From an uncultured Alsobacter sp. (GTDB lineage Bacteria; Pseudomonadota; Alphaproteobacteria; Rhizobiales; Beijerinckiaceae), in contig NZ_CAMFHB010000019.1 in assembly GCF_945952055.1 (NCBI RefSeq), positions 46,930 to 110,929 of the forward strand: a stretch of 64,000 nucleotides of DNA, written 5' to 3'. Positions 33,146 to 60,503 of this stretch are shown piece by piece (position 1 is the first letter of the stretch; each line of letters begins with the position of its first letter). The notes under the pieces were generated by a model. The model was not told the DNA's origin. It ran no database searches and saw only the letters and a program-made list of their open reading frames with translations. The translations under genes and the position numbers were made by a program.

Positions 33146-33191
33146 CCCCGTCCGTTTCGACTTTCCCGACATCAGCGGCAGGAGACGCCCG

Positions 33192-33683: not shown

Positions 33684-33685
33684 CG

Positions 33686-34714: not shown

Positions 34715-34733
34715 GCACGCTTGGACACGGCGG

Positions 34734-34759
34734 CACCGGCTTTCGCGCGAAAGCCGGTG
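34734..34759. repeat. Perfect 26-bp palindrome
   Basis: CACCGGCTTTCGC followed by its exact reverse complement GCGAAAGCCGGTG lies in the short gap between the deacylase and puuE-like genes. It differs in sequence from the ~100-bp repeat family. It could be a second small palindromic repeat type or a local hairpin; only one copy is seen in the window. Confidence 0.7.
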
Positions 34760-34793
34760 GCCCCAGATGACGGGTTGCGCAGGGATGAACACG

Positions 34794-35714: not shown

Positions 35715-35752
35715 GCCGGATCGCCGAGCGATTCGGGAGCACAGGGCAGGCC

Positions 35753-37307: not shown

Positions 37308-37364
37308 GATCGTCGTCCCCGTGCCTGTGGCGCCCCTGCAGGCAGCGTGCCGAGCGAGAGCGCA

Positions 37365-37393
37365 TTGACTGTATGTTTGTTATACAATATCGC
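37365..37393 (+). promoter_or_regulatory. Candidate promoter with embedded GntR-type operator
   Basis: TTGACT (37365-37370) is a good -35 and TATCGC (37388-37393) a weak -10 at 17-base spacing, reading toward the system 3 operon. The spacer contains TTGTTATACAA (37377-37387), a TTGT-N3-ACAA palindrome. A regulator bound there would block RNA polymerase directly. The site assignment is inference; no start-site data are available. Confidence 0.6.
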
Positions 37394-37545
37394 TTTGTGA
37401 CAACAAGAAACGCTCGCGATCCGGCCCTTCTCCCGTTGGCATCCGGATTGCTCGGGAACGCCGGGGACCATGGTCCCGAGTGTTCGCGCCCCCGACCGCC
37501 GACACTGCTCCGCCACGCCGTCTTTCGAGGGAAAGGACTGCTCCG

Positions 37546-39153
37546 ATGGCCCGTTGGTCCGTTTCAGGCTCGCTTCGCACGCTTCTCGTCTCCTCCGCCC
37601 TGGCGCTCGCCGCCGGCCCGGCCTTCGCCCAGGCAAACCTGGTGATCGCCTTCCCGGCGAACCAGGAGCCGGCCCAGCTCGACGGCCACATCGACCCCTA
37701 CCAGTCGACCTGGCTGCTCAACTCCTTCATCGCCGATCCGCTCGTCATCCTCGACAGCGACGGCAGCTACAAGCCGGCGCTGGCGACCTCCTGGGAGAGC
37801 TCGCCCGACGGCAAGGTGTGGACCTTCAAGCTGCGCTCCGGCGTCACCTTCCAGGACGGCACGCCCTTCGACGCGGCCGCGGTGAAGTACAACCTCGAGC
37901 GCATCAACGACCCGAAGACCGCGTCTGCCCAGCTGAAGAGCGACGTGGGCCCGTGGAAGTCTGTCGAGGTGGTCGATCCGACGACGGTGAAGATCACCTA
38001 CGACACGCCGTGGGTGACGCTGCTGGACGCGCTGCGCCGCACGCCGATCTGGTCGCCGACCGCGGCGGAGAAGTTCGGCCTCGCCAACTTCAGCAAGAAC
38101 CTCGTGGGCGCCGGTCCGTTCACGCTGGCCGAGTGGGTGCCCAACGACCGCATCGTCTTCAAGAAGTGGGCGGGCTACGGCGGCTGGAACCCGGTGCAGA
38201 AGGCCAAGGGCCCGGTCGGCGTCGACCAGGTGACGGTGCGCTGGATCGGCGAGGGCGCAGTGCTCGGCAACGTTGTCAAGAGCGGCAACGCCCAGATCGG
38301 CTTCACCATCCCGGCGAGCTTCGTCGACGAGTACAAGAACGACAAGACGGTCCAGTTCATCTCGAAGGACCAGTCGGGCACCGGCCTGCAGATGGTGATG
38401 AACACCCGCAAGCCGCCGTTGAACGACGTGCGCGTGCGCCGCGCGCTGCACCATGCCGCCGACCAGGCCGCCATCAACAAGCTGCTCTACGACGGCTACT
38501 ACGCGCCCTCCGAAGGCCCGCTCAACAACAACCATCGCTGCTTCTGGGACGGCGCGGGCAAGATGTACGAGCGCTCCGCCGACAAGGCCAAGGCGCTGCT
38601 CGAGCAGGCCGGCTGGAAGGCCGTGTCGGGCAAGCCGATCCGCGAGGCCCAGGGCGTCGCGGGCGTGCCGGACGGGACGCCGCTGAAGATCCGCTACAAC
38701 GTCCTCCATCACAAGGAGATCGGCGAGGCGCTGCAGGCGCAGATGCGCCGCGCCGGCATCGACCTCGCCGTCGAGGTGGTGGCCGGTCCCGTGCAGCTCG
38801 ACCGCGTGCGCAAGGCCGACTTCGAGCTCATGTACGAGCGCCAGCGTTCGCCCGATCCGCTGATCCTCGACCAGGTGTGGAACTCCAAGTGGGACCAGCC
38901 CGGCGGCTGGGCCTGGACGGGCTTCAAGGACGACACGCTCGACACCACGCTCAACAAGCTGCGCGCGCTGCCCTCCATCGACGAGCGCTGCGCGGCCGCC
39001 CGCGACGCGCAGAAGATCATCATGGAGAACGCGCTGATGCTGCCGACCCTGTCCGACCCGGTCTTCGTGGCCGTGTCCGGCAAGGTGAAGGGCTTCCAGA
39101 TGGGCGCCGAGGGCAACTGGTTCTTCCTGAACAACGTGACCCTCGACAAGTGA
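37546..39153 (+). CDS. ABC transporter substrate-binding protein, family 5 (system 3)
   Basis: This 535-residue periplasmic protein has a signal peptide of about 28 residues (LRTLLVSSALALAAGPAFA-Q) and the family segment LRSGVTFQDGTPFDAAAV. AAAGGA lies 8 bases before ATG 37546; the upstream in-frame ATG at 37480 lacks a site and would bury the signal. It is the first gene of a long operon. A GC hairpin separates it from the permeases. The ligand may be an amide or hydantoin-like compound, given the HyuAB and amidohydrolase downstream (inference). Confidence 0.93.
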   Translation: MARWSVSGSLRTLLVSSALALAAGPAFAQANLVIAFPANQEPAQLDGHIDPYQSTWLLNSFIADPLVILDSDGSYKPALATSWESSPDGKVWTFKLRSGVTFQDGTPFDAAAVKYNLERINDPKTASAQLKSDVGPWKSVEVVDPTTVKITYDTPWVTLLDALRRTPIWSPTAAEKFGLANFSKNLVGAGPFTLAEWVPNDRIVFKKWAGYGGWNPVQKAKGPVGVDQVTVRWIGEGAVLGNVVKSGNAQIGFTIPASFVDEYKNDKTVQFISKDQSGTGLQMVMNTRKPPLNDVRVRRALHHAADQAAINKLLYDGYYAPSEGPLNNNHRCFWDGAGKMYERSADKAKALLEQAGWKAVSGKPIREAQGVAGVPDGTPLKIRYNVLHHKEIGEALQAQMRRAGIDLAVEVVAGPVQLDRVRKADFELMYERQRSPDPLILDQVWNSKWDQPGGWAWTGFKDDTLDTTLNKLRALPSIDERCAAARDAQKIIMENALMLPTLSDPVFVAVSGKVKGFQMGAEGNWFFLNNVTLDK

Positions 39154-39167
39154 CGGACCACGGACAT

Positions 39168-39195
39168 CCGGCGGCGCGCTCGCGCGTGCCGCCGG
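39168..39195 (+). promoter_or_regulatory. 12-bp-stem hairpin between binding protein and permease (system 3)
   Basis: CCGGCGGCGCGC, loop TCGC, GCGTGCCGCCGG, beginning 15 bases after the binding-protein stop. The loop sequence and stem length equal those of the hairpin at 30078, with one G-T pair each. There is no T-run. Confidence 0.65.
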
Positions 39196-39236
39196 CCTCC
39201 CGCCGGGCGCCCGTTGCCCGCAAGAGCATGTGATCC

Positions 39237-40172
39237 ATGGGTCGCTACATCCTCAGCCGTGTTCTCCAGCTGCTGCCGGTGCTCTGGCTGATCACGCTGA
39301 TCGTGTTCATGATCATGCACGTCCTGCCGGGCGACCCCGCCGAGCTGATGCTGGCGGGCGCCGAGGGTGGCGCGATCACGCCCGAGCGGTTGCGCGAGCT
39401 GCACCAGGAGATGGGGCTCGACGACCCGCTGGTGGTGCAGTACCTGCGCTTCCTCGGCCACGCGATGATCGGCGACCTCGGCCAGTCGATCCGGTTCCGC
39501 ATGCCGGTGACCGAGCTCATCCTCGACCGGTTCGCCTCCACGCTGGAACTCGCCGTCTTCGGCCTCCTGGTGGCGCTGCTCATCGGCGTACCGCTCGGCA
39601 TGCTGGCGGCGCTGCGCCAGAACACGGCCATCGACACGGCCGCCATGGGCATCGCCTATGTCAGCGCCTCGATGCCGATCTACTGGCTGGGCCTGGTCTC
39701 GATCCTGATCTTCTCGTTCATCCTCGGCTGGTTCCCGCCGGCAGGGGGCGACGGATGGCAGACGCTGGTGCTGCCCGCCGTCACGCTGGGTCTCGTCTCC
39801 TCCGGTCTCGTGGCGCGCCTCATCCGCTCCAGCATGGTCGAGGTGCTGGCCGAGGACTACATCCGCACCAGTCGCGCCAAGGGCCTGCCCGAGCGCCTCG
39901 TGCTGTGGCGCCACGGCCTGAAGAACGCGCTCATCCCGGTCGTCACGATGGTGGGCCTGCAGTTCGGGGGCATGCTGGCCGGCGCCGTCGTCACCGAGAC
40001 GGTGTTCAGCCGCCCGGGCGTCGGCCGCCTCGTCGTCAGCGCCATCCTGGCCAAGGACTACCCGCTGGTGCAGGGCTGCATCATCTTCCTCGCCACGGTC
40101 TATCTCACCGTGAACCTCGCAGTCGACGTCGCCTATGCGTGGCTCGACCCGCGCATCCGCTACACGGTCTGA
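39237..40172 (+). CDS. ABC transporter permease, DppB/OppB type (system 3)
   Basis: This 311-residue permease starts MGRYILSRVLQLLPVLWLI, has HVLPGDPAELML, the EAA loop DYIRTSRAKGLPERLVLWRH, the conserved TETVFSRPGVGRL segment and LDPRIRYTV at the end. The upstream ribosome binding site is weak, consistent with lower expression than the binding protein. It is 3 bases from the partner permease gene. Confidence 0.94.
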   Translation: MGRYILSRVLQLLPVLWLITLIVFMIMHVLPGDPAELMLAGAEGGAITPERLRELHQEMGLDDPLVVQYLRFLGHAMIGDLGQSIRFRMPVTELILDRFASTLELAVFGLLVALLIGVPLGMLAALRQNTAIDTAAMGIAYVSASMPIYWLGLVSILIFSFILGWFPPAGGDGWQTLVLPAVTLGLVSSGLVARLIRSSMVEVLAEDYIRTSRAKGLPERLVLWRHGLKNALIPVVTMVGLQFGGMLAGAVVTETVFSRPGVGRLVVSAILAKDYPLVQGCIIFLATVYLTVNLAVDVAYAWLDPRIRYTV

Positions 40173-40175
40173 GCC

Positions 40176-41075
40176 ATGGCGGGACCCGTGGCCAGCGAGG
40201 CTCTTGCCGCCCCGGTCGTCGCTCCCGCGAGCCGCGGGCTGCGGGCGCCGTGGGTGCGCCGCTTCCTGCGCAACAAGGGGGCGGTGGCCAGCCTCCTCGT
40301 GCTCCTGGCCTGGTGCGTCGTGGCGCTGCTCGGCACGCGGGTGGTGCCCTACGATCCGACGGAGACGGTCGACCTCGCGCGCCAGCCGCCGTCCGCGACC
40401 TACTGGTTCGGGACCGATCTCCTGGGCCGTGACGTCTTCAGCCGCGTGCTGGTCGGCTCGCAGATCTCGCTGTGGCTCGGCTTCATCAGCGTGACGCTGG
40501 GGGCAGTGCCCGGCGTCTTCCTGGGGCTGATCGCCGGCTACAAGGGCGGCTGGTGGGACACCGTGATCTCGCGCTGCATGGACGCGCTCCTTGCCTTTCC
40601 CTCGATCCTGCTGGCGCTCGTCGTCATCGTGGCGCTCGGCACCTCGATCGAGAACGTCATGATCGCGGTGGGCATCGCCACGGTGCCGCAATACGCCCGC
40701 CTCGTGCGCGGCAGCGTGCTGTCGATCAAGCAGCTGCCTTATGTCGAGGCCGCCCGCGTTGTGGGCAACCGGCCCTGGCGCATCATGCTGCGGCACGTGC
40801 TCGTCAATGCCTATGCGCCCGTGGTCGTGCTCTCCACGCTGCAAATCGGCAATGCCATCCTCATCGGCTCGGGGCTGTCGTTCCTCGGCCTCGGCGCTCA
40901 GCCGCCGACCCCCGAATGGGGCCTGATGTCGGCCGAGGGCCGCGAGGTGCTCAAGCGCGCCTGGTGGATCTCGACCTTCCCGGGCCTCGCCATCCTCACC
41001 GTCGTCGTCGCCTGCAACCTGGTCGGCGACGGCCTGCGCTCCGCCTTCGACCCGCGCATGCGGGTGGAAGGCTGA
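40176..41075 (+). CDS. ABC transporter permease, DppC/OppC type (system 3)
   Basis: This 299-residue permease has a cytoplasmic N-terminus, first membrane helix near residues 38-60, the FGTDLLGRDVFSRVLVGSQ segment, EAA loop VEAARVVGNRPWRIMLRH and FLGLGAQPPTPEWGLM before the last helix. It pairs with the preceding permease. Enzyme genes follow directly, with the ATPases five genes downstream at 47006-49035. Confidence 0.94.
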   Translation: MAGPVASEALAAPVVAPASRGLRAPWVRRFLRNKGAVASLLVLLAWCVVALLGTRVVPYDPTETVDLARQPPSATYWFGTDLLGRDVFSRVLVGSQISLWLGFISVTLGAVPGVFLGLIAGYKGGWWDTVISRCMDALLAFPSILLALVVIVALGTSIENVMIAVGIATVPQYARLVRGSVLSIKQLPYVEAARVVGNRPWRIMLRHVLVNAYAPVVVLSTLQIGNAILIGSGLSFLGLGAQPPTPEWGLMSAEGREVLKRAWWISTFPGLAILTVVVACNLVGDGLRSAFDPRMRVEG

Positions 41076-41089
41076 TACCGGAGATCTCC

Positions 41090-42541
41090 ATGACCCAGCC
41101 GATCCCGCCCGCCGCCCTCAAGGATCCCTTCGTCGGGATGCAGATCAGCCCGATCAGCTTCATCGACGAGGGCGTCGACACCGTGCTCGACACGCTGCAG
41201 AACCGGGTCGGCGTGAACGCGCTGCTGATCGGGACGATCTCGTGGCTGGGCCTCAAGGTCGGCCGGCGCATCTCGCACCAGCTCGAGGGCTGGCCCGACC
41301 ATGGCGTGCCGGCGCCCTACACCATGCAGGGCGGCAGCTACATCAAATCGCGGCCCGAGTACTACAGCGACACCTTCATCAAGGAATTCGCCTCGGCCGA
41401 TCCCGAGATGGGCGGGCAGGACATCCTCGACCTCGTCATCCCGAAGGCCAAGGAACGCGGGATGAAGGTGATCCCGGAGTTCATGGAGCCGCTGTTCAAA
41501 TACGCCGGCCACGGCTCGGCGGCCGCGGTGCTCATCCCCAACATGCCGCAGTGCCTGGAGATCGACCTGCTCGGCCGCGTCGCCGGCGAGCCCTGCACGA
41601 GCAACCCGCATTACCGGAAGTGGTGGCACGGCATCGTCGAGCAGCACTGCCGCTCCTACGGCATCGACGGCATCATGTGGTGCAACGAGCGCAACAGCCC
41701 CCTCGACCGGATGCTGCAGGGCCAGGCGCCGGGCTGCTTCTGCCCGCACTGCCGCAAGGAGGCTGCCGAGCGTGGCATCGACTGTGAGCGCGTGAAGGTC
41801 GCCTTCCACAAGGTGTGGGACGTGGTGAAGGGGCTGCGCGCCAACAAGACCTTCGCCGACAACTCGCTCATCGAGTTCATGCGCGTGCTGCTCGTGAACC
41901 CCGAGGTTCTGCTGTGGGAGAAGCTCTGGCTGGAGCGCTCCAAGGACCTCGACCGCGAGCTCTACGGCATCGTGAAGTGGTGCGACCCGAAGCTCTCCTT
42001 CGGCCTCAACGTGTGGAACCGCAACCACTTCAATCCGGTGCGCAAGGCGCAATGGGGCTGGGAGGAGCAGACCGACTATGCCGACTGGGTGAAGCCCATC
42101 ACCTACCAGCACCAGTCGGGCCACATCTTCGCGAAGGAGATGGAGCACTACCGCAAGACCATCCTGCGCGACTTCGACGCCAACGACTTCACGCCCGCGA
42201 TGTACTCCATCCTCGGCCTCAACGAGGCGCCGTGGGACAAGGTGGTGCAGGCCGGTCTCGATCCCGACACCTACGTCTACGGTCAGTGCGCCGACGCCGT
42301 GCGCGGCTGCGCCGGCAAGGCCAAGGTCTACATGGGCATCGGCGTCGACGCGCCGCGCGAGCGCAAGGACCAGGCGGTCTGCACGCCGGACATCGTCTAT
42401 CGCAGCGTGCTGGCGACTTACCGCGCCGGCGGGGAGGGGATCGTCTATTCCCCGAACTATGCCGGCATGAACCTCACCAACCTCGATGGCGGCGCCCGCG
42501 CGCTCGAGGAACTCGGCCTCAAGCCCGCCACCGCGGCCTGA
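41090..42541 (+). CDS. Unrecognised TIM-barrel-like protein, glycosyl-hydrolase-like, with Cys motif
   Basis: This 483-residue cytoplasmic protein has no signal peptide. I could not assign it to a named family with confidence. Alternating strand/helix patterns, the segment YGIDGIMWCNERNSP and a C-F-C-P-H-C cluster (Cys216, Cys218, Cys221) resemble uncharacterised glycoside-hydrolase-like (GHL/family 10-type) TIM barrels. The cysteines may bind a metal. The Glu in WCNE could be catalytic. GGAG lies 6 bases upstream of ATG 41090. It sits between permeases and an amidohydrolase, so a role in processing the imported ligand is inferred. Confidence 0.85.
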   Translation: MTQPIPPAALKDPFVGMQISPISFIDEGVDTVLDTLQNRVGVNALLIGTISWLGLKVGRRISHQLEGWPDHGVPAPYTMQGGSYIKSRPEYYSDTFIKEFASADPEMGGQDILDLVIPKAKERGMKVIPEFMEPLFKYAGHGSAAAVLIPNMPQCLEIDLLGRVAGEPCTSNPHYRKWWHGIVEQHCRSYGIDGIMWCNERNSPLDRMLQGQAPGCFCPHCRKEAAERGIDCERVKVAFHKVWDVVKGLRANKTFADNSLIEFMRVLLVNPEVLLWEKLWLERSKDLDRELYGIVKWCDPKLSFGLNVWNRNHFNPVRKAQWGWEEQTDYADWVKPITYQHQSGHIFAKEMEHYRKTILRDFDANDFTPAMYSILGLNEAPWDKVVQAGLDPDTYVYGQCADAVRGCAGKAKVYMGIGVDAPRERKDQAVCTPDIVYRSVLATYRAGGEGIVYSPNYAGMNLTNLDGGARALEELGLKPATAA

Positions 42542-42572
42542 CGGCGACACCACACCAGAGAGGGAGGCGACG

Positions 42573-43796
42573 ATGCCCGAACAGGCACCCTGGCGGTTCC
42601 AGAAGATCATCCGGCCCATGGTCGAGATCGAGCCCGAGCACGTGATCCTGGTCGGCCGCGTGCTGACCTGCGTCGGCGACGAGATCATCGAGAACGGCTT
42701 CGTCGAGATCGAGGGCAAGACGATCAAGCGGGTCGGCCGCACGTCCGATCTCGGCGCGACTGCAGCGCGGGTGATCGAGACCGGCGGCACGATCCTGCCG
42801 GGCCTCATCCAGAGCCACGGGCACCTCGCCTGGGACGGCATCCACGACCTCGCGGCGCAGTCCATGGACGATGCGCCCGAGATCGCCGCCTACAAGTGCG
42901 CGAGCAACATGCTGATCAACCTGAAGGCGGGCGTGACCACCTTCCGGGACCTCGGCGTCAACCGCACCAACCTCTTCGCCAAGCAGGCGGTGGCCCAGGG
43001 CATCTTCCCCGGCCCGCGGCTGCTCGTCTGCGGCCAGGCCATCGTGCAGACCGGCGGGCACACCTACTGGTGCTGCCGCGAGGCGAGCGGACCCGACGAG
43101 ATGCGGCGGGCCGTGCGCGAGCAGGTGCGCGGCGGGGCCGATCTCATCAAGATCATGGCCTGCCACGACACGCTCGAGTTCACCGACGCCGAACTCGAGG
43201 CGGTGATCGACGAGAGCCACCGCAACAAGCTGCCGATCACGGCGCACGCCACCTACGACGCCTGCATCAACCGCGTGGTCCGCTTCGGCATCGACGTGGT
43301 CGAGCACGGTGGCTCGATGAGCGAGGAGACGATCGGGCTCCTGAAGGAAAAGAACGTCCCCATCGTCACGACCTTCGCGCCGGTGGTGGTGCAGAGCCAG
43401 CCGGAGATCGCGCGCAAGTTCAACATTCCGGAGTGGAAGATCGCCGAGCGCCAGAAGGCCGTCGCCGATCCCAAGCGCTACCAGGGCCTGGTCGATGCGG
43501 CAAAGGCCGGCGTCACCATCGCCTTCGGCACGGACTGCGGCAGCCCGGCGGTGGCGCACAGCGTCATCGCGCCGGAGCTGAAGTTCATGGTGAAGGTCGG
43601 CGTCAAGACCGACGCCTACGATGCCATTCGCAGTGCCACGGTGGTGGCCGCGGGCATCAACAAGCTGAAGCAGATCGGAACCCTGCAGGAGGGCATGCTC
43701 GCCGACGTGATCGTCGTCGACGGCAACCCGCTTGCCGATCTCGACGATATCGCGAAGGTCCGGATGACCTTCCTCGAAGGAAAGCGGATGGTGTGA
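42573..43796 (+). CDS. Amidohydrolase, imidazolonepropionase/prolidase-like
   Basis: This 407-residue amidohydrolase has metal-site segments IQSHGHLAWDG (HxH), DLIKIMACHD (lysine), ITAHATYD, VEHGGSMSE and FGTDCGSP. GAGGGAGG precedes the ATG at 42573; the in-frame start at 42486 would overlap the preceding gene. It is from the same family as 27151-28392 but clearly diverged. It probably hydrolyses an amide or lactam derived from the imported compound before transamination by the next gene product (inference). Confidence 0.92.
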   Translation: MPEQAPWRFQKIIRPMVEIEPEHVILVGRVLTCVGDEIIENGFVEIEGKTIKRVGRTSDLGATAARVIETGGTILPGLIQSHGHLAWDGIHDLAAQSMDDAPEIAAYKCASNMLINLKAGVTTFRDLGVNRTNLFAKQAVAQGIFPGPRLLVCGQAIVQTGGHTYWCCREASGPDEMRRAVREQVRGGADLIKIMACHDTLEFTDAELEAVIDESHRNKLPITAHATYDACINRVVRFGIDVVEHGGSMSEETIGLLKEKNVPIVTTFAPVVVQSQPEIARKFNIPEWKIAERQKAVADPKRYQGLVDAAKAGVTIAFGTDCGSPAVAHSVIAPELKFMVKVGVKTDAYDAIRSATVVAAGINKLKQIGTLQEGMLADVIVVDGNPLADLDDIAKVRMTFLEGKRMV

Positions 43797-43798
43797 CG

Positions 43799-45001
43799 AT
43801 GAGCGAAGACAAACTCCGGAGCGACGCAGATCCCCGGCTGATGAAGGCGCTGTCGCGCCGCATCCGTGCCCACGACGAGAGCTACCGGACCAAGATGCTC
43901 GCCATGGCGGCGAAGCTGCCGGACGTGATCGCCATGGGCCGTGGCGACCCCGATTTCCACACGCCCAAGCACATCGTAGAGGCGGCCAAGAAGGCGATCG
44001 ACGAGAACCAGCACCACTACACGCTGCCGGCCGGCCTGCCGCAGCTGCGCGAGGCCATCGCCGACACGCTGCGCCGCGAGAACGGCCTCGACTACACCGC
44101 CAACGAGGTGGTGGTGACCGCCGGCACGCAGGAAGCGGTGATGCTGTGCATGCTCGCCCTGATCGACCAGGGCGACGAGGTGCTGATGCCGACGCCGCGC
44201 TTCACCTCCTACGACACGGCGGTGGAGATGTGCGGCGGCGTCTGCGTCGACATTCCGACCGTCGAGGCGACGAACTTCGCCCTGATGCCGGCGGAGATCG
44301 AGAAGCGCATCACGCCGCGCACCAAGGTGCTCGTGCTGATCACGCCGAACAACCCGACGGGCGCGGTGACGCCGCCGTCGGCCATTCGCGAGATCGCCGA
44401 GATCTGCAAGCGGCGCGACATCGTGGTGATCTCGGACGAGATCTATGCCCGCATCATCTTCGAGGGCAGCGAGCACCTCTCCATCGGCACCCTGCCGGGG
44501 ATGAAGGAGCGCACCATCACGATGAACGGCTTCTCGAAGTCGTACGCCATGACCGGCTGGCGCGTCGGCTACGTGGCCGCGCCGGCGGCCTTCACGGCGC
44601 GCCTGACGGAGCCGCGGCACACGCTGTCGATCAACGCCAACACGCCCGCGCAGTGGGCGGCGCTCGCCGCGCTCACCGGCCCGCAGGAGCCGGTGGACGC
44701 CATGGTGCGCGCCTATGCCGAGCGGCGCGCCTACATGCTGGAGGCGCTCGACGAACTGGGCTTCACCTACGGCCATCCGGGCGGCGCCTTCTACGTCTAC
44801 GCCAACGTGGAAAAGAGCGGGCGGCCGGCACCGGAGTTCTGCGAGAAGCTCCTGACCGAGGCGCGCGTGCTGGTGTTCCCCGGCACGCTGTTCGGCGACA
44901 AGGACGACCGCTACATCCGGCTCAGCCTGCTGCAGCCGGTGGAGCGCATCCGCGAGGCCGTGGCGCGCCTCAAGGACGCCAAGTCCAGGATCTTCGCATG
45001 A
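43799..45001 (+). CDS. Class I/II PLP-dependent aminotransferase
   Basis: This 400-residue fold-type I aminotransferase has PLP lysine Lys247 in NGFSKSYAMTGWRVGY, with ITPNNPTG and ISDEIYARI. It is a paralogue of the protein at 31940-33145. The start lies 2 bases after the amidohydrolase stop; the stop overlaps the oxidoreductase start (ATGA). It would convert the liberated amino acid to a keto acid or the reverse. Confidence 0.93.
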   Translation: MSEDKLRSDADPRLMKALSRRIRAHDESYRTKMLAMAAKLPDVIAMGRGDPDFHTPKHIVEAAKKAIDENQHHYTLPAGLPQLREAIADTLRRENGLDYTANEVVVTAGTQEAVMLCMLALIDQGDEVLMPTPRFTSYDTAVEMCGGVCVDIPTVEATNFALMPAEIEKRITPRTKVLVLITPNNPTGAVTPPSAIREIAEICKRRDIVVISDEIYARIIFEGSEHLSIGTLPGMKERTITMNGFSKSYAMTGWRVGYVAAPAAFTARLTEPRHTLSINANTPAQWAALAALTGPQEPVDAMVRAYAERRAYMLEALDELGFTYGHPGGAFYVYANVEKSGRPAPEFCEKLLTEARVLVFPGTLFGDKDDRYIRLSLLQPVERIREAVARLKDAKSRIFA

Positions 45002-46041: not shown

Positions 46042-47009
46042 CCGTGCTGGTGACGGGAGCGGGCGGGTTCGTGGGTTGCCACCTCGTGGAAGCCCTCGCG
46101 CGCGCCTTCCCGTCCACGCCCGTGGTGGCAGCCGACCTCGCTCCGCCCGACGCCGCCGCGGCGGCCGTCTACGCGAGCTTCCCGGGCCAGGTGGTCTCCG
46201 TGGCCGTCGACGTCGCCGACCGTTCGGCTGTCGCGGACCTCGTCGGCCGAACACGCCCCGAGACGATCGTCCATGCCGCGGCGATCACGCCGACGCCGGA
46301 GCAGGAGCGCGCGGACCCCGTCCGCATCATGGACGTCAACTACGGCGGTCTCGCCAACGTGCTGCAGCCGGCCACCACCGTGCCCGGGCTGCGGCGCGTG
46401 GTGTTCCTCTCGTCCACCGGTGTCTTCGGGCCCGCGGCCGGGCAGGGGCCGCTCGACGAGGAGGCCGACCCGAAGCCCCGGATCCTCTACGGCATCGCCA
46501 AGCGCGCGGGCGAAGACCTGCTGCGGCGCTGGTCGGAGGTCACGGGCGTCAGCGGCGCGAGCCTGCGGCTCGGGGCCATCTTCGGGCGGCACGAGCGCCC
46601 CACGCCGCATCGCGGCCGCATGAGTGCCGTCGGGCGGCTGCTCGCGGCCGGCGCCGGCGGTCGCGAGGTGGCGGTGCACGGGCGCGCCGTGCTGCGCGAC
46701 TGGCTGGATGGCGACGACCTCGGCGCCGGCATCGCTCGCCTCGTCGCGGCTCCGAAGCTGGGGGCGACGCTCTATCACGCGACGGGCGAACGGCTCTCCT
46801 TCGGAGAGGTCGTCGACGCCGCTGAGCGCGGCGGCCTTCGCTGCCGCTGGGTCGGCGATCCGGCGGCCGCCAACGTCTCGCAGCTTCCGCAGGACAATCG
46901 TCCCGAGACGCCGGCGACGCGCTTCGCGCGGGAGTTCGGGCCGCTGTGCCGGCGGCCCGTGACCGAGGCGGTGCGCGACATGGCGGCGACGGCGGGAGTG
47001 GCGGCATGA
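46038..47009 (+). CDS. NAD-dependent epimerase/dehydratase family protein
   Basis: This 323-residue extended SDR has [10 protein letters not shown] as the cofactor loop, FLSSTGVFG around the catalytic Ser and [11 protein letters not shown] as YxxxK. It resembles nucleotide-sugar epimerases and uronate dehydrogenases in layout, though the substrate loop is not decisive. Overlaps with both neighbours show coupled translation. Confidence 0.9.
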
Positions 47010-47986
47010 GCGCGTTGCTCGAGGTCGAGGACCTCTCCGTCGCGTTCCGCTCGCAGTCCGGCACCGTCCGGGCCGTCGACGGGGTGTCGTTCTCGGTCGA
47101 TCGCGGGGAGACGCTCGGCATTGTGGGCGAGTCCGGCTCGGGCAAGTCCGTGACGGCGCTCGCCGTCATGGGCCTCGTTGCCGATCCGCCCGGCAGGATC
47201 ACCGGCGGGCGCATCCGCTTCGAGGGCCAGGACCTTCGCGCCGCGTCGCCGGAGACGTTGCGGTCGCTGCGCGGGCACGGCATCGCCATGATTTTCCAGG
47301 ATCCCATGACGTCGCTGAACCCGGTGCTCACCATCGGGCGCCAGCTGACCGAGGTCACCGAGGTCCATCTGGGGCTGTCGCCGGAGCAGGCGCGCCGGCG
47401 CGCGGTCGAGCTCCTCGACATGGTCGGCATTCCCTCGCCCGAGAGCCGGCTCGACGACTATCCGCACCGCTTCTCGGGCGGCATGCGCCAGCGCGTCATG
47501 ATCGCCATGGCCATGGCCTGCAAGCCGCGCCTGATCATCGCCGACGAGCCGACCACCGCGCTCGACGTCACCATCCAGGCCCAGATCCTGGAGCTCCTGC
47601 GCAGCCTTCAGGCCGAACTCGGCATGGCCATGATCCTGATCACCCACGATCTCGGCGTCGTCGCCGGCATGGCCGACCGGGTCTGCGTCATGTATGCCGG
47701 CCGCATCGTCGAGGAGGGCCCGACCGAGGCGATCTTCGACGCGCCGGGCATGCCCTACACGGCCGGGCTCCTCGGTTCGGTGCCGCGGCTCGACAGGCCC
47801 GATTCCGCGCGGCTCGTGCCGATCCCCGGCCTGCCGCCGGCCGGCTCGCAGGGCCCGGGCGTCTGCAGCTTCGCGCCGCGGTGCGGGCACACGATGGCGC
47901 GGTGCCTGGAAAAGGCGCCGTCGCTTGTCCCGGTCGGCGATGCGCGACACCGGGCGGCCTGCTGGTTGCGGGAGGCCCGCCCGTGA
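47006..47986 (+). CDS. ABC transporter ATPase, OppD/DppD type (system 3)
   Basis: This 326-residue ATPase has Walker [12 protein letters not shown]-loop [10 protein letters not shown], signature [16 protein letters not shown], Walker [13 protein letters not shown]-loop ITHDLGVV and C-terminal [14 protein letters not shown]. The start at 47006 overlaps the epimerase stop; a longer frame from 46946 is rejected because [12 protein letters not shown] is the standard N-terminus. With the next gene it completes importer 3 in the same operon as its permeases, five enzyme genes downstream. Confidence 0.95.
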
Positions 47987-49035
47987 CGACATCCGCCGGA
48001 CCCTTGCTCGAGGTCGAGAACCTCGCGGTCCACTTCCCCGTCACGCGCGGCTTCATCTTCGAGCGCCAGGTGGGCACCGTGAAGGCCGTCGACGGCGTGT
48101 CCTTCGCCCTGCAGCGCGGCTCCACCCTCGGCCTGGTGGGCGAAAGCGGCTGCGGCAAGTCGACGGTCGGCCGCGCCATCCTGCGGCTCGTCGAGCCCAC
48201 CGGCGGCAGCGTGCGCTTCGACGGCACCGACCTGCGCGGGCTCGGCGAGGAGGAGTTGCGGCGGCTGCGCCGGCGCATCCAGATGATCTTCCAGGACCCC
48301 TATGCCAGTCTCAACCCGCGCATGAGCGTGGGGGCCGCGCTGGCCGAGCCGATCCGCCTGCACGGCCTGCGCGAGGGCGAGGCGGCGGTGAAGGACCGGG
48401 TGCGCGAGCTCCTGGGTCTCGTCGGGCTCGACCCGGCCTATGCGGAACGTTTCCCGCACGAGTTTTCCGGCGGTCAGCGGCAACGCATCGGCATCGCCCG
48501 CGCGCTCGCCTGTGAGCCCGATCTCATCGTCTGCGACGAGCCCGTCTCGGCGCTCGACGTGTCGATCCAGGCCCAGGTGATGAACCTGCTGCAGGACCTG
48601 CAGCAGAAGCTCGGGCTCACCTACCTGTTCATCGCCCACGGCCTCAACGTGGTGCGCCACATCAGCGACCGCGTGGCGGTGATGTATCTCGGGCGCATCG
48701 TCGAGATGGGCGAGAAGGGCCCGCTCTACGCCGACCCGCGCCACCCCTACACGCGCGCCCTGCTGTCCGCCGTGCCGGTGCCCGATCCGCGGCTGGAGAA
48801 GCGCCGTCGCCGCATCATCCTGCAGGGCGACGTTCCGAGCCCGCTCAACCCTCCCCCCGGGTGCCGCTTCCAGACCCGCTGCCCCGTGGTGCAGGATCGC
48901 TGCCGCAGCGAGGACCAACAGCTCGCGCCGGGGCCGTCCGGGGTGGACGTCGCCTGCTGGCGTGCGCCCGAGGTGCCCGCGCTGCTGCCCAACGCTTTCG
49001 CAGGGACGGCTGCCCCGTCCACCAGGACCCACTGA
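47983..49035 (+). CDS. ABC transporter ATPase, OppF/DppF type (system 3)
   Basis: This 350-residue ATPase starts at a GTG overlapping the previous stop (GTGA). Motifs: Walker [22 protein letters not shown], signature [16 protein letters not shown], Walker [12 protein letters not shown] and C-terminal [14 protein letters not shown]. The H-loop region reads IAHGLNVV, where nearly all relatives have AHDL; the His is intact. Its stop overlaps the hyuA start by one base. Confidence 0.94.
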
Positions 49036-51104
49036 TGACCACAGCCCGCTACCGCATCGGCATCGACGTCGGCGGCACCTTCACCGATTTCATCCTGGCC
49101 GACATGACCGGCGGCGGGCTCGTCCTGCACAAGGAACCGTCAGTGCCGGGCGACCCGTCGCTCGCCGTCGAGCGCGGCATCGCGGCCCTCGTGGATAGCC
49201 GCGGGCTGGCGCCACGGGACGTCGAGCTCGTCGTCCACGGCACAACCATCGGCCTCAACGCCATCATCCAGCGGCGGGGCGCGAAGCTCGCCCTCGTCGT
49301 GTCGCGGGGCAACCGCGACGTGATGGAGATTGCGCGGCTGAGGCTGCCGAGCTCCTACGACGTGGCGGCCCCGCGCGAAGCGCCGCTGGTGCGCCGCGAC
49401 CTGGTGTTCGAAGTGGGGGCGCGCCTGCGCTCCGACGGCACCGTGCTCGAACCCGTCGATCCCGCCGAAGTGGACGGCGTGGCGGACGAACTCGCCAGGC
49501 GCGGCGTCGACGCGGTCGCCGTCATGCTCCTCAACTCCTATCGCGATCCTGCCCTCGAGATCGAAGTGGCGGAGCGCCTGCGGGCCCGCCTGCCGGGCGT
49601 GCTGGTGACGGAATCGGGCGTGGTCTGGCCCGAGGTGCGCGAGTACGAGCGCTGCCTCGTGGCTGGCCTCAACGCCTATATCCATCCGTTGATGACGTCC
49701 TATTTCGACCGCCTGCAGCGCCGCGTCGGCGAGGCCGGCGTGAAGGGGCCGATCTACATCACCGCCAACAATGGCGGGACGCTCGGCCTCGACACGGCCC
49801 GCGAACGCCCCATCGACACCGTGCTCTCCGGGCCCGCCTCGGGCGTCGTCGCCTCGGTGCGGATGGGCGAGGCGGCGGGGCGCACCAGGCTCATCACCTT
49901 CGACATGGGCGGAACCAGCGCCGACATCTCGATCGTGCGGGCCGGAGCGCCGGAGTTCACGACCACCACCTTCGTGGGCGACTTCCCGCTGATCATGCCC
50001 GTGGTGAACGTCGGCGCCATCGGCGCCGGCGGCGGGTCGATCCTGTGGGTCGACGACCAGGGTTTCCTGAAGGTCGGACCGCTCTCCGCGGGGGCCGATC
50101 CTGGTCCCGTGTCGTACCGGCGCGGCGGCACGCAGCCCGCCGTCACCGATTGCTATCTCGCCACCGGCATCATCGACCCCGACCGCTTCCTCGGCGGCCG
50201 CATGCGGCTCGACCGCGAGGCGGCGCTCGCGGCGCTCGCCGAGATCGCGCAGCGGCTCGGCCTCCCGGGGCCCGTGGACGCGGCGGAGGCGGCCCTGCGG
50301 GTGGCCAGCGCCAAGATGGCCAGCGAGGTGATCAAGCTGCTCGCGACGGCCGGAGCCGACCCGCGCGACTTCGCGCTCGTCGCCTATGGCGGCGCGGGCC
50401 CGACCCATGCGGTGCTGCTGGCGGAGGAGGCGGGGCTGGAGGCCGTGCTGGTGCCGACCACGCCTGGCGCCTTCTGCGCGCTCGGAGCCGTGCTCGCCGA
50501 CGTTCGCCGCGACTACGTCCAGACGGCACGCCACCTGATCGCGGCACCCGGCGTCCTGCCGGCGTCGCGCGACGGCTGGGCTGCCGTGGACGAGGCCATC
50601 GCCCGCCTGCGCCGCGACGCGCTCGCCTGGATCGCCAAGGAGGGCGCGCTCGTCGGCGCCCACAGCATCGCGGTCAGCGCCAACATGCGCTACACGGGCC
50701 AGGCCTACGAACTCGACATCCCGGCGCCCTCGGATCCGCCCGATCCCGCCTCATGGTGCGAGGCCTTCCATGCCGAGCACCACCGCCTCTACGGCTTCAG
50801 CGATCCGTCGGCCCCGGTGCAGGTCACGACCGTTCGGCTCGGGGTGATCGGCAAGGTGCCGCCCGTCCAGTTCCCGCCGGCCGACGACGCGAAGCCCGTG
50901 GCGCGCGGCACCCGCACCGTGTGGCGCAACGGAAAGGCGCTCGAGGCCGCCGTCTACGACCGCGCGGGCTTCGGCCGCGGCGCGGCGGTCCAGGGTCCCG
51001 CCATCATCGAGCAGGCCGACACCACCACGCTGGTGCTCGACGGCTGGCGCTGCGAGGCCGACGCCATCGGCACCCTTCACCTGACGCGGGAGGGCCGGCG
51101 GTGA
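49035..51104 (+). CDS. hyuA: Hydantoinase A / oxoprolinase family protein (second HyuA)
   Basis: This 689-residue HyuA protein has YRIGIDVGGTFTDFILAD at the N-terminus, ITFDMGGTSADISIV in the ATPase core and YGGAGPTHAVLLAEEAG. It is diverged from the HyuA at 14186-16231. ATP-dependent opening of a hydantoin, lactam or similar with the next gene product is expected. Its place in the importer operon ties the reaction to the imported compound (inference). The ATG overlaps the stop of the OppF-type gene. Confidence 0.93.
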   Translation: MTTARYRIGIDVGGTFTDFILADMTGGGLVLHKEPSVPGDPSLAVERGIAALVDSRGLAPRDVELVVHGTTIGLNAIIQRRGAKLALVVSRGNRDVMEIARLRLPSSYDVAAPREAPLVRRDLVFEVGARLRSDGTVLEPVDPAEVDGVADELARRGVDAVAVMLLNSYRDPALEIEVAERLRARLPGVLVTESGVVWPEVREYERCLVAGLNAYIHPLMTSYFDRLQRRVGEAGVKGPIYITANNGGTLGLDTARERPIDTVLSGPASGVVASVRMGEAAGRTRLITFDMGGTSADISIVRAGAPEFTTTTFVGDFPLIMPVVNVGAIGAGGGSILWVDDQGFLKVGPLSAGADPGPVSYRRGGTQPAVTDCYLATGIIDPDRFLGGRMRLDREAALAALAEIAQRLGLPGPVDAAEAALRVASAKMASEVIKLLATAGADPRDFALVAYGGAGPTHAVLLAEEAGLEAVLVPTTPGAFCALGAVLADVRRDYVQTARHLIAAPGVLPASRDGWAAVDEAIARLRRDALAWIAKEGALVGAHSIAVSANMRYTGQAYELDIPAPSDPPDPASWCEAFHAEHHRLYGFSDPSAPVQVTTVRLGVIGKVPPVQFPPADDAKPVARGTRTVWRNGKALEAAVYDRAGFGRGAAVQGPAIIEQADTTTLVLDGWRCEADAIGTLHLTREGRR

Positions 51105-53161
51105 CGCAGGATGCAGCCTCCGGGATCGTCCTCGATCCCGTCGACCTCGAGATCTTCTTCCACAAGTTCACCGCCGTGGCCGAGGAGATGGCCATCACGC
51201 TGCAGCGGGCGGCCCGCACCACCTATGTGAAGGAGGCCGGCGACTTCGGCACCGCGCTGGCGAGCCCCGGCGGACGGTTCTTCGCCTATCCGCGCGTGCT
51301 GGGCGTCTCGGGCTTCCTCGACAGCGACGTCGGCCCCTCGCTGGAGGCGATCCCGGACCTCGAGCCCGGCGACGTCATCATCACCAACCACCCCTATGCG
51401 AGTGTCGGGCTCTCCACCCACATGCCCGACCTGCACCTCATCCGGCCGATCTTCCACGAGGGCCGGATCGTCGCCCATGCCTGGGACTTCATCCACTCGG
51501 CGGATGTCGGCGGCGGCGTGCCGTCCTCGATCTCGCCGCGCTTCTCGGACCTGTTCCAGGAGGGCTTCCAGATTCCGCCGATGAAGCTGATGAAGGCGGG
51601 CGTGATGAACGCCGACTTCCTGACGCTCTACCGGTCGAACTGCCGCACGCCCGACGTCAATCTCGGCGACATCAACGCCATGCTGGCGGCGCTGGCCATC
51701 GGCGAGCGGCGGGTGCACGAGCTCATCGCCGCCCACGGCGTCGAGACCTTCATGCAGGCGCAGCGCGACCTCGTGGCCTATGCCGCGGCCAAGGCGCGCC
51801 AGGTGCAGCGGCGGATCCCGGACGGCGACCACGTCTTCTGGGACTATCTCGACGACGACTACAATTCGCCGGTGCCTGTGCGCCTGCGCTGCTGCCTCAA
51901 GGCGCGCGACGGCCACGTGCATCTCGACTTCACGGGCTCCGACCCTCAGGTCGAGGCTGCCTACAACGTGCCGACCGGCGGGCGTCGGCACGTGTGGCTG
52001 ACGCTCAAGCTCATGCACTTCGTCTACAGCACCGACCGCACGGTGCCGCTGAACTACGGGCTGTTCGAGAACATCACCGTCGAGGCCCCGTCCGGCACCA
52101 TCGTCAATCCCGAGCCGCCCGCCGCCGTGGGCGTGCGTGCCGCCACGGCCATCCGCATCAACGAGGCGCTGGTGGGCGCCATGTCGGTCGCCAAGCCCGG
52201 GCTGATGCCGGCGCCGAGCGGCGGCGTGATGATCCCGTCCGTGCTCGTCGAGCAGGATCCGGCGACGGGCGCGCGCAGCGTCATGGTGCTGCAGTCGCTC
52301 GTCGGCGGGACGGGGGCACGCGAGGGCGGCGACGGCGTCGACGGGCGCGATTCCAGCCTCGCCAACCAGCGCAACACGCCGATCGAGAAGACCGAGGAGG
52401 AATCCGCCGCGGTCATCGTCGACTACGCGCTGCGCCCGGACTCGGGCGGCGCCGGCCGCTGGCGTGGCGGCACCGGCGTCGTCTTCAGCGTGCGCATCGT
52501 GCGCGACGGCAGCGCCGTGCTGGGCCGCGGCATGGAGCGCTTCGTGTTCCGGCCGTGGGGCATGGCCGGCGGCAAGCCGGGCGCCAATGCCCGCGTGGTG
52601 CTCAACGCCGGGACGCCGCAGGAACGTGACCTCGGCAAGCTCGACATGTTCGTGGCGCGCGCCGGCGACGTGGTCACCATCATGACCCCTGGCGGCGGCG
52701 GCTTCGGCGACCCGCTGGAGCGGCCGGCGGATGTGGTCCGCGACGACGTAGTGTCGGGCTATGTGAGCCGCGAGTCCGCCCTTGCGGACTATGGCGTCGT
52801 GCTCGACGGCGACGCCGTGGACGAGGCTGCGACGCGGGCCCGGCGGGACGCCATCCGTCGCGGCCGCCCGGGCCTGAAGCGCTTCGACTACGGGCCCGAG
52901 CGCGAGGCCTGGGACACCGTCTTCGACGACGCGTCGATGCTGGAGTTCAATGCCCTGCTGATGCGGCTGCCGACCTCGGTGCGTTCGCGCCGGCGGCGTG
53001 AGATCTTCGACCGGGTGGTGCCGGGCCTGTCGGCCGGCGTCCGGCCGCTGCAGGACGCCATCGGCGATCCGGACGCGGCACGCGCCCGGCTCAAGGACGA
53101 TATCGAGGCCCTCCGGCGCGCTCTCGCGCCAGGCGAGGGAGAGACAAGGAGGACGTCATGA
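51101..53161 (+). CDS. hyuB: Hydantoinase B / oxoprolinase family protein (second HyuB)
   Basis: This 686-residue HyuB protein starts at a GTG overlapping the hyuA stop. Family segments are GDVIITNHPYASVGLSTHMP, HSADVGGGVPSS and VTIMTPGGGGFGDP. It is about 100 residues longer than the HyuB at 12447; the extra length is mostly a C-terminal part after GGGGFGDP (ERPADVVRDDVVSGYVSRE onward) rich in Arg and Asp. The extension could contact the partner or be lineage-specific. It is coupled to the following oxidoreductase gene (ATGA). Confidence 0.93.
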   Translation: MTQDAASGIVLDPVDLEIFFHKFTAVAEEMAITLQRAARTTYVKEAGDFGTALASPGGRFFAYPRVLGVSGFLDSDVGPSLEAIPDLEPGDVIITNHPYASVGLSTHMPDLHLIRPIFHEGRIVAHAWDFIHSADVGGGVPSSISPRFSDLFQEGFQIPPMKLMKAGVMNADFLTLYRSNCRTPDVNLGDINAMLAALAIGERRVHELIAAHGVETFMQAQRDLVAYAAAKARQVQRRIPDGDHVFWDYLDDDYNSPVPVRLRCCLKARDGHVHLDFTGSDPQVEAAYNVPTGGRRHVWLTLKLMHFVYSTDRTVPLNYGLFENITVEAPSGTIVNPEPPAAVGVRAATAIRINEALVGAMSVAKPGLMPAPSGGVMIPSVLVEQDPATGARSVMVLQSLVGGTGAREGGDGVDGRDSSLANQRNTPIEKTEEESAAVIVDYALRPDSGGAGRWRGGTGVVFSVRIVRDGSAVLGRGMERFVFRPWGMAGGKPGANARVVLNAGTPQERDLGKLDMFVARAGDVVTIMTPGGGGFGDPLERPADVVRDDVVSGYVSRESALADYGVVLDGDAVDEAATRARRDAIRRGRPGLKRFDYGPEREAWDTVFDDASMLEFNALLMRLPTSVRSRRRREIFDRVVPGLSAGVRPLQDAIGDPDAARARLKDDIEALRRALAPGEGETRRTS

Positions 53162-54222
53162 AGGTCGGAATCATCGGGGCGAGCTTCGCCAAGGCCGCCT
53201 ATCTGCCGGCGCTGAAGCACGTCGAGGGCGCCGAGGTGGTCGCCATCGCCAGCGCGCGCAAGTCCAGCGCCGAGGCTGCCGCGCAGGCGTTCGGCGTGCC
53301 GCACGCCTATGACGACTGGCAGGCGATGATCGCGAACCACACGTTCGACCTCGTCTGCGTCGCGACCCCCACCGTGACTCACGCGCCGATGACGCTGGCC
53401 GCTCTGGATGCCGGTGCCGCGGTGCTGTGCGAGAAGCCCACCGCCATGGACGCCGGGCAGGCCAAGGCCATGCTCGACCGTGCCGAGGCGCTCGGCCGGG
53501 TGCACATGATCGACCACGAGCTCCGCTTCAACCCGAACCGCCGCAAGGTGAAGGCGCTCATCGACAGCGGCGCGATCGGTAAGGTCCGGCACGTCGTCGT
53601 CTCGAACATCGTGGCGGCCTGGGGCGATCCGGCGTCGCGCTCAAAGGGCGACTGGTGGTCGCTGGCGAGCGAAGGCGGCGGGCGGCTCGGCGCCAATGGC
53701 TCGCACCAGGTCGACCTCATCCGCTGGTGGCTGGGCGAGGTCGGCGCCGCCGACGGCATGCTGCGCACCATGGTGCCGGACCGCGTGGACAAGACGACCG
53801 GCGAGCCCTGGCGGGCGGACGCCGACGATTTCGCATCCTTCACCCTCGACATGAAGAGCGGCGCCATCGTCCAGGTCATCATCAACGCGACCGCGCGTCA
53901 CGGGCTCGACAACACCACCCAGATCTTCGGCAGCGAGGGCACCATCCTGCTGCACAACACCGGCGAGAAGCTGCTCGTCGCCAAGGCCGGCGAGACCTTC
54001 AAGGAGGAGCAGGTCGAGGACCCCAACGCCAGCCTGCCCGGCCTCAACGCCGGCATCTGGAACGTGTCGGTCGTGGGCGTGATGCGCGAACTCGCCGCCG
54101 CCATCCGCGAGAAGCGCCCGGTGAAGGAAGGCGCGACCTTCTGGGACGGCTGGAAGAACCAGCTCGTTCTGGACGCGGTGGCCCAGTCGAGCAAGGAGCG
54201 GCGGTGGGTGGATCTGGGGTGA
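53158..54222 (+). CDS. Gfo/Idh/MocA family oxidoreductase (second)
   Basis: This 354-residue oxidoreductase starts MKVGIIGASFAKAAYLPAL with a Rossmann loop GASFAK, EKPTAMDAG (EKP motif) and GSHQVDLIRWWLG. It ends the 13-gene operon that begins at 37546 and is followed by repeat copy G. It differs from the one at 44998, so the pathway appears to have two separate dehydrogenase steps on polyol-like or keto substrates (inference). Confidence 0.92.
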   Translation: MKVGIIGASFAKAAYLPALKHVEGAEVVAIASARKSSAEAAAQAFGVPHAYDDWQAMIANHTFDLVCVATPTVTHAPMTLAALDAGAAVLCEKPTAMDAGQAKAMLDRAEALGRVHMIDHELRFNPNRRKVKALIDSGAIGKVRHVVVSNIVAAWGDPASRSKGDWWSLASEGGGRLGANGSHQVDLIRWWLGEVGAADGMLRTMVPDRVDKTTGEPWRADADDFASFTLDMKSGAIVQVIINATARHGLDNTTQIFGSEGTILLHNTGEKLLVAKAGETFKEEQVEDPNASLPGLNAGIWNVSVVGVMRELAAAIREKRPVKEGATFWDGWKNQLVLDAVAQSSKERRWVDLG

Positions 54223-54250
54223 GGGGCGCTGATCTCGACGCTGCGCTGCA

Positions 54251-54357
54251 TCTCTCAACTGTCCTGGCCGGGCTTGGCCCGGCCATCCACGACTGTGCCG
54301 GGGCCATGCGCAAGTCGTGGGTGCCCGGGCCAAGCCCGGGCATGACGCGCGGAGGGG
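54251..54357. repeat. Dispersed palindromic repeat, copy G (between convergent genes)
   Basis: A full copy with GGCCGGGCTTGGCCCGGCC and GCCCGGGCCAAGCCCGGGC arms and inner CCACGACT / AGTCGTGG stem. It lies between the convergent oxidoreductase (+) and OppF-type ATPase (-) genes. Confidence 0.88.
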
Positions 54358-54387
54358 TTGGAGCCTTGCAGAGGTGCCTTCAGCCCC

Positions 54388-60496: not shown

Positions 60497-60503
60497 TCGA
60501 GCG

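Follow-up and report, generated by a model that had tools for sequence, protein, structure and literature searches.

Gene content of the operon

We analyzed a 64,000-nucleotide (nt) stretch of DNA from an uncultured Alsobacter sp. (contig NZ_CAMFHB010000019.1, positions 46,930 to 110,929; hereafter, the window), with a focus on an operon in which the genes of an Opp/Dpp-type importer are interleaved with those of sugar- and amide-acting enzymes. The operon comprised 13 plus-strand genes (37546-54222), all with intact reading frames. Gaps between successive genes were 83, 3, 14, 31, 2, -4, -4, -4, -4, -1, -4, and -4 nt, so that seven of the 12 junctions overlapped by 1 or 4 nt. Both the 13 coupled or closely spaced genes reported in a first-pass annotation of this DNA and their protein family assignments were borne out, the latter by Pfam. 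The 5′ border was formed by a divergent NHL gene (minus strand, 36450-37307) and the 3′ border by a convergent minus-strand gene starting from 54388. A consensus scan of 37000-55000 returned no promoter-like site, and the sole terminator-like site was on the minus strand within the first gene of the operon. The first-pass annotation had known of no named pathway with this gene set, and our literature search likewise found no published description among the papers listed, a weak negative given that subscription journals were thinly covered.

The importer begins with a family 5 substrate-binding protein (SBP; 37546-39153; PF00496, 255.8 bits) with an N-terminus that is, by eye, of the secretion type. 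It is followed by permease B (39237-40172; PF00528 and PF19300) and permease C (PermC, 40176-41075; PF00528 and OppC_N), while ATPases D (47006-47986) and F (AtpF, 47983-49035), both with ABC_tran and oligo_HPY domains, are located further downstream. Together, these provide the same five-part make-up as known Opp/Dpp importers, namely SBP_bac_5, two BPD_transp_1 permeases, and two ABC_tran/oligo_HPY ATPases, within one operon. The solved structures nearest to the SBP were, in order, YliB (1uqw, 130.1 bits), 5u4o, 4wed, and AgaA (6hlx, 116.6 bits).

The first enzyme gene encodes a TIM-barrel, glycoside-hydrolase-like protein (41090-42541; hereafter, the TIM protein) that had no Pfam or NCBIfam match at E <= 0.001, and hence none to GHL10 (PF02638). 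Its AlphaFold2 model (pLDDT 89.3, pTM 0.90) was closest in fold to Cwp19, PgaB, GH42, and GH164, which points to a clan-A type (beta/alpha)8 glycoside hydrolase fold. Judged by secondary structure, residues N199-E200 and D420 would correspond to the acidic catalytic pair expected where strands 4 and 7, respectively, end. Residues E200 and R201 were invariant, including in three relatives with only 31-34% identity. Unlike the GHL10/Cwp19/PgaB-type enzymes that it resembles in fold, the TIM protein lacks a Pfam match and has no signal peptide or other export signal by eye. A search that scored just those candidates with the most shared words returned 691 relatives at E <= 0.001; among the best 120, those that were named were almost always called hypothetical protein, and two carried PF02638.

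The TIM gene is followed by a metal-dependent, dipeptidase-like amidohydrolase (42573-43796; PF01979, Amidohydro_1), for which 42573 is the most likely start and 42486 a possible alternative. Its metal-ligand motifs were present (HGH82, H225, H245, D321), and nearly all of the best 120 of 2053 relatives, scored in the same restricted manner, were 407-411 amino acids long. The best NCBIfam match was XaaProDiPepCaul (NF051886), at 188.2 bits against a cut-off of 500, which places the protein outside the Xaa-Pro dipeptidases as curated. It shares the metal motifs with the solved Xaa-Pro/Xaa-Arg dipeptidases 3be7 (118.9 bits) and Cc2672 (3mtw, 115.3 bits); however, 9kov ('trum-mut') scored higher, at 157.6 bits, and the remaining solved matches included ochratoxinase alongside arginine carboxypeptidases and prolidases.

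Next are a class I/II pyridoxal phosphate aminotransferase (43799-45001; PF00155, Aminotran_1_2, 238.6 bits) with an intact SKSY motif at 246, a Gfo/Idh/MocA dehydrogenase (GfoA, 44998-46041; PF01408) with EKP and HxxD motifs, and an epimerase/dehydratase-type SDR (46038-47009; PF01370, Epimerase, 124.3 bits) with YGIAK at 151, the motifs of the latter two also being intact. Downstream of the ATPases are a HyuA/oxoprolinase-type subunit (49035-51104; PF01968, Hydantoinase_A, 289.7 bits), which is a candidate for ring opening, its partner HyuB (51101-53161; PF02538, Hydantoinase_B, 468.8 bits), and a second Gfo/Idh/MocA dehydrogenase (GfoB, 53158-54222; PF01408). HyuA resembles the caprolactamase/5-oxoprolinase group, its nearest solved relatives being the 5-oxoprolinase 6yra and an N-methylhydantoinase. 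However, HyuA and HyuB reached only 496.4 and 222.6 bits with the caprolactamase CapAB models (NF050156 and NF050157), whose cut-offs are 1000, and are accessory to the system considered here. Among the matches listed, no enzyme of the system exceeded a curated NCBIfam cut-off.

Recurrence and distribution of the gene set

Six exact peptide patterns, scanned against species genomes, yielded 78 loci that encode the TIM protein, at 59-91% identity; the use of exact patterns biased this sample toward close relatives. Neighboring genes were counted by tblastn using window genes and representatives from other loci, with a match anywhere in the locus being counted, and many loci were cut by contig ends. 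By record title, or in a few cases from recall, the loci were from 29 alpha- and four gammaproteobacteria, 17 Gemmatimonadota, 14 Chloroflexota, nine Deinococcota, and two Acidobacteria, with one locus each labeled Gracilibacteria, Spirochaetota, and Actinomycetota. Some of these singly occurring labels may come from misbinned contigs. The TIM proteins of L017 (Gracilibacteria) and L011 (Acidobacteriaceae) were 72% and 78% identical to that of the window, and these loci are possibly misbinned contigs or recent transfers.

Of the 78 loci, 66 contained the amidohydrolase, 60 this type of aminotransferase, 46 AtpF, 45 PermC (within 400 nt upstream of the TIM gene in 26), and 35 GfoA. When only loci in which the TIM gene was flanked by over 8 kb on either side were considered (n=44), the amidohydrolase was present in 42 and the aminotransferase in 40. 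Several families from outside the operon also recurred, specifically AllB-type hydrolases (31/78), M24 (29/78), M32 (25/78), VOC (25/78), Ldh_2 (24/78), and DUF4438 (22/78). Less frequent were ALO (15/78), SDR (13/78), AspA (13/78), GfoB (12/78), HyuA (8/78), HyuB (7/78), M14 (7/78), and PuuE (5/78). HyuA followed ATPase F in L014 and L024, as it does in the window, and a dehydrogenase of the GfoB type was located 30-134 nt upstream of the TIM gene in L016, L017, and L018.

The order permease, TIM, amidohydrolase, aminotransferase, Gfo/Idh, ATPases, with SDR ignored, was found in 20 of the 78 loci, and the operon is therefore more than a chance grouping. Its core consists of the importer, TIM protein, amidohydrolase, aminotransferase, and Gfo/Idh dehydrogenase, with GfoA being core in Gemmatimonadota, Gammaproteobacteria, and some Alphaproteobacteria, while HyuAB, SDR, and GfoB are accessory, although each recurs elsewhere. 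Hence, of the 13-gene set put forward in the first-pass annotation, the core recurs in order, but the set as a whole is not fixed. The same annotation had proposed a neighborhood search in other genomes, which recovered this core order across phyla, and had reasoned that scatter of the genes in close relatives would speak against a unit. Instead, in a genome of the same genus (G003, contig L009), the permeases, TIM, amidohydrolase, aminotransferase, GfoA, SDR, and ATPases were contiguous. The unit that it had recognized, of carbohydrate-type enzymes and C-N hydrolases behind an Opp-type importer, is co-inherited.

Moreover, pairwise identities of the TIM protein, amidohydrolase, aminotransferase, and Gfo proteins correlated at 0.81-0.97 (uncorrected for shared ancestry), and TIM divergence tracked that of Gfo/Idh most closely (r 0.96). 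A local pile-up of catabolic genes with no joint function might be suspected because the window has several sets of importer genes and some hydrolase families more than once; it is contradicted by the conserved order across phyla and by the correlated divergence, and we consider it scarcely credible.

Presence of the gene set was sparse at each taxonomic level. Within a draw of 59 related genomes, including that of the window itself, the TIM protein was found only in the window's genome and in one other of the same genus, while two further genomes of that genus lacked it. An even draw across the class recovered the TIM protein in two of 241 genomes and a close amidohydrolase in one, and a draw across the phylum using a wider profile recovered the TIM protein in two of 398. 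Identities of around 60-80% across phyla, taken together with this patchy presence, suggest horizontal transfer, and the set is probably a transferred one.

A proposed scavenging pathway and its alternatives

Gene content, intact motifs, recurrence across phyla, conservation of order, correlated divergence, and co-occurrence with a companion operon (27142-36256) form the basis on which we tentatively propose, as a possibility that stops short of probable, that the system is an undescribed pathway which scavenges a sugar-bearing, peptide-like conjugate as food. The SBP and Opp-type importer would capture and import a small peptide-like molecule bearing a sugar, which the enzymes of the operon would then dismantle in the cytosol. 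The TIM protein probably cuts the sugar linkage, with E200 as the likely acid/base and D420 as a candidate partner, as judged from its modeled fold. The amidohydrolase would cleave an amide or peptide bond to release an amino acid that the aminotransferase could convert to a 2-oxo acid, and the Gfo/Idh dehydrogenases and SDR would oxidize or epimerize the sugar or polyol so released. An accessory hydrolase, this being HyuAB here and an AllB- or PuuE-type enzyme elsewhere, might in many lineages open cyclic forms such as lactams, diketopiperazines, and hydantoin-like rings. The companion operon would process a second part of the same nutrient.

Several observations weigh against this reading. 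The substrates, activities, and step directions assigned to its members are predicted from sequence. Unlike the SBPs of known Opp/Dpp systems, that of the operon was below the cut-off for all 10 NCBIfam matches listed, the top one being the nickel-binding NikA (167.3 bits against a cut-off of 393), with other binding proteins next, and its best solved relative, YliB, is a glutathione-binding protein. A glycoside hydrolase fold, itself modeled, is not proof of glycosidase activity. Among the three relatives of the TIM protein at 31-34% identity, one had D at position 420 while the other two had N, and one had S in place of N199; in the related Cwp19 the strand-7 acid is absent, with a glycine near the position of D420. 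The amidohydrolase was not seen in the covered DNA of 12 of the 78 loci, including L012 and L024. While AllB-, PuuE-, or HyuAB-type hydrolases were present in 41 of 78 loci, they were found in only one of 21 from Gemmatimonadota and Gammaproteobacteria; ring opening is therefore not part of the core and looks to have been added. Finally, the correlated divergence is expected in part from shared ancestry, for which no tree correction was made, and the AtpF correlation was lower (0.51-0.81), perhaps due to mixed paralogues.

The dipeptidase-like character of the amidohydrolase raises the alternative of plain peptide scavenging, in which the amidohydrolase and M24 enzymes would cut Xaa-Pro/Xaa-Arg di- or oligopeptides, the aminotransferases would deaminate the products, and the TIM protein, Gfo/Idh, and SDR would perform an unrelated redox or hydrolytic job. 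Its best NCBIfam match to an Xaa-Pro dipeptidase and several solved matches to arginine carboxypeptidases or prolidases are consistent with this, as are the peptide class of the importer and the recurrence of M24, M32, M14, and M20 families. Against it, TIM is the shared gene and diverges in step with Gfo/Idh, and the presence of two Gfo/Idh dehydrogenases and an SDR, accompanied elsewhere by ALO and MR/MLE families, suggests that the nutrient includes a sugar or polyol. We regard plain peptides as an unlikely substrate, if one to be reckoned with.

In its overall workings the system is like known importer-plus-catabolic operons. For example, mannopine/agropine catabolism also uses a family 5 SBP, the opine-binding protein AgaA, to feed the catabolism of a sugar-amino-acid compound; this comparison concerns the SBP only, and YliB scores above AgaA. 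Glycated (Maillard/opine-type) amino acids or peptides, for instance sugar-derived arginine imidazolones that cyclic-amide hydrolases would open, could account for the combination of sugar redox enzymes with cyclic-amide and arginine-carboxypeptidase-like ones, and AgaA ranks fourth among the solved relatives of the SBP. However, such linkages need no glycoside hydrolase fold, the SBP similarity is generic, and neither a fructosamine kinase nor a deglycase turned up among the scanned proteins. No such cluster appeared among the papers listed on glycated peptides and cyclic dipeptides. We hold this explanation to be highly improbable.

Distant relatives of the TIM protein raise yet another alternative, namely glycosylated proline- or hydroxyproline-rich peptides, such as extensin or arabinogalactan-protein fragments. 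The TIM protein would strip the peptide-linked sugar, prolidase-like enzymes would cut Xaa-(hydroxy)proline, and the ring openers would take the diketopiperazines formed by such dipeptides. A 32% identical relative on Granulicella plasmid pACIX901 (L095, L099) is located between peptidylprolyl isomerase and aminopeptidase P genes; the genes ahead of it, which resemble a hydroxyproline pathway, are of the proline racemase family, DapA family, and oxidoreductase type, and farther upstream there is a GH127 gene as well as one with a beta-L-arabinofuranosidase domain. Additionally, two Parabacteroides relatives are near GH43 and prolyl oligopeptidase genes, and the amidohydrolase and M24 protein of the window have prolidase-type best matches. 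However, these relatives are only about one-third identical to the window protein, and the Granulicella one looks exported. The Granulicella genes had no match in the window, with only weak DapA matches in two of 78 loci and a weak M1 match in one, and the proline racemase family was present in just five of 12 TIM-bearing genomes tested. The combination that marks trans-4-hydroxyproline catabolism (a racemase-family epimerase, an oxidase, and a DapA-family deaminase in the locus) was not found. This substrate appears very unlikely to us. With the hydroxyproline lead thus weakened and the relatives of the SBP mixed (NikA, YliB), we propose no more than a sugar-bearing, peptide-like conjugate. 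The ligands suggested in the first-pass annotation, such as an amino-sugar lactam or a Maillard or opine conjugate, are speculative; YliB ranked first and AgaA fourth among the solved SBPs.

The Granulicella pACIX901 locus is in its own right a candidate for extensin degradation; the plasmid search with the TIM protein returned two records, both with distant relatives only. Two tandem TIM relatives (L096:8848-11881) were found in a Parabacteroides SusCD-type locus with a glycerate kinase and an SLC13 permease. Mycosporine-like amino acids were also considered and dropped: their breakdown would need a demethylating step, which was part of the reason, and the papers listed in the literature search contained nothing on this gene set.

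A bolder form of the sugar-conjugate proposal, which we find doubtful if by no means far-fetched, is that the TIM protein is the founding member of a new cytosolic glycosidase family acting on peptide-bound sugars and that the two operons are a transferred pathway, found in at least five phyla by record title, which scavenges sugar-modified peptides of decaying biomass, including ring-closed forms. Sugar-modified and cyclized peptides make up a share of the poorly characterized organic nitrogen from dead cells and plant walls, and a gene set that is both conserved and transferable, and whose importer is genetically defined, would offer a way in to the identity of the compound. It would likewise give a handle on an enzyme family that has neither a Pfam nor an NCBIfam model.

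Companion operon and surrounding window

Genes outside the limits given in the first-pass annotation (37546-54222) belong to the system as well, which is thus a larger unit than had been reported and includes the companion operon at 27142-36256. Its plus-strand genes encode a second amidohydrolase (27142-28392; PF01979), which is 53% identical to one near the TIM gene in Meiothermus L032, and a second Opp-type importer (28417-31943), comprising an SBP (SBP2; PF00496) and two permeases, the first with PF00528 and the second 51% identical to PermC by tblastn. These are followed by an aminotransferase (AT1, 31940-33145; PF00155), a VOC (glyoxalase-fold) protein (33192-33683; PF13669), a DoeB-like deacylase of the AstE/AspA type (33686-34714; PF24827), a PuuE-like, allantoinase-type hydrolase (34767-35714), and a ureidoglycolate-lyase-like protein (35753-36256; PF04115, 79.2 bits). 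The divergent NHL-repeat protein (PF01436) between the two operons best matched generic NHL propellers, with peptidylglycine amidating monooxygenase being weaker, and in L013, L015, and G166 its gene was in the same place, pointing away from the importer gene next to it.

As in the window, the importer was preceded by VOC, AspA, and PuuE in L010 (Microvirga) and L013 (Methylobacterium), the latter also having the companion aminotransferase there. Genome G166, the source of L012, contained this companion operon in the order seen in the window, with SBP2, the two permeases, AT1 (81% identity), VOC (80%), AspA (75%), PuuE (62%), and NHL, on a different contig from its TIM operon. The companion VOC protein was present in the same two of 241 class genomes as the TIM protein. 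This co-occurrence predicts that both operons are induced by the same compound. Two points count on the other side. The two G166 contigs could still join, some 20 kb or more away, such that loss of linkage is unproven, and PuuE-like proteins of this type, found in 22 of 241 class genomes of which 20 lacked the TIM protein, are therefore not specific to the system.

The PuuE-like protein bears on a further alternative, a ureide or hydantoin pathway parallel to purine catabolism, in which PuuE-, AllB-, or HyuAB-type enzymes would open an allantoin-like ring and the ureidoglycolate-lyase-like and Ldh_2 enzymes would complete the breakdown. The adjacency of the PuuE-like and ureidoglycolate-lyase-like genes, with a similar pair in L122, one of four other genomes read, suggests this, as does the recurrence of AllB/ErtD-type hydrolases and of Ldh_2, a family related to sulfolactate and ureidoglycolate dehydrogenases, near the TIM gene. 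However, the PuuE-like protein reached 392 bits with the PuuE allantoinase model (TIGR03212), below the cut-off of 424.6, while a paralogue elsewhere in the genome (C6) exceeded it with 550 bits. In the four of the 22 genomes that were read, with 10 neighboring proteins scanned, neighbors of the PuuE-like gene were housekeeping or mixed, with the single exception of the ureidoglycolate-lyase-like gene in L122. PuuE-like proteins are also commoner than the TIM protein, and ring openers are almost missing from the Gemmatimonadota form. We find such a pathway quite unlikely, and purine or allantoin catabolism was rejected as the main role given the separate PuuE, the PuuE-like neighbors, and the scarcity of ring openers.

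Downstream of the operon, on the minus strand, are an M24 creatinase/prolidase-type hydrolase (56402-57568; PF00557 and PF01321) and an Ldh_2 family dehydrogenase (57568-58740; PF02615, 358.1 bits), both of families that recur near the TIM gene. Ectoine catabolism (DoeA, DoeB) resembles the window region in that M24, AstE/AspA, and aminotransferase classes are all present. However, the DoeB-like deacylase scored 108.2 bits against a cut-off of 402.7, and the M24 protein was closer to PepQ (110.1 bits) than to the DoeA models (56.6 and 40.9 bits, the latter against 613), and ectoine catabolism was rejected. The M24 and Ldh_2 proteins are related to those of many Rhodobacteraceae-titled loci, in which VOC, AT1, and M32 are divergent from two DUF4438 genes, Ldh_2, M24, amidohydrolase, AT2, TIM, and AllB. 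Tandem DUF4438 genes were located at L043:3508-5306. DUF4438 has a solved relative, TM1086; it had no match in the genome of the window, and no paper was found under that name.

A third SBP, two permeases, and an M20 peptidase are located at 58922-63900. SBPs of the same cluster (c34) as this third SBP were found near the TIM gene in several Rhodobacteraceae-titled loci and in L010. The set may be part of the system.

The window is an importer-rich stretch, with five partial or whole Opp/Dpp-type sets besides that of the operon (4296-9864, 23442-25534, 28417-31943, 54388-56363, and 58922-62522). It also contains a second HyuAB pair on the minus strand (12489-17879), the subunits being 41% (HyuA) and 34% (HyuB) identical to those of the operon. 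Adjoining this pair is an AllB-like amidohydrolase with 30-33% identity to the AllB proteins near the TIM gene, and beside it is a GntR/FCD regulator (17982-18695).

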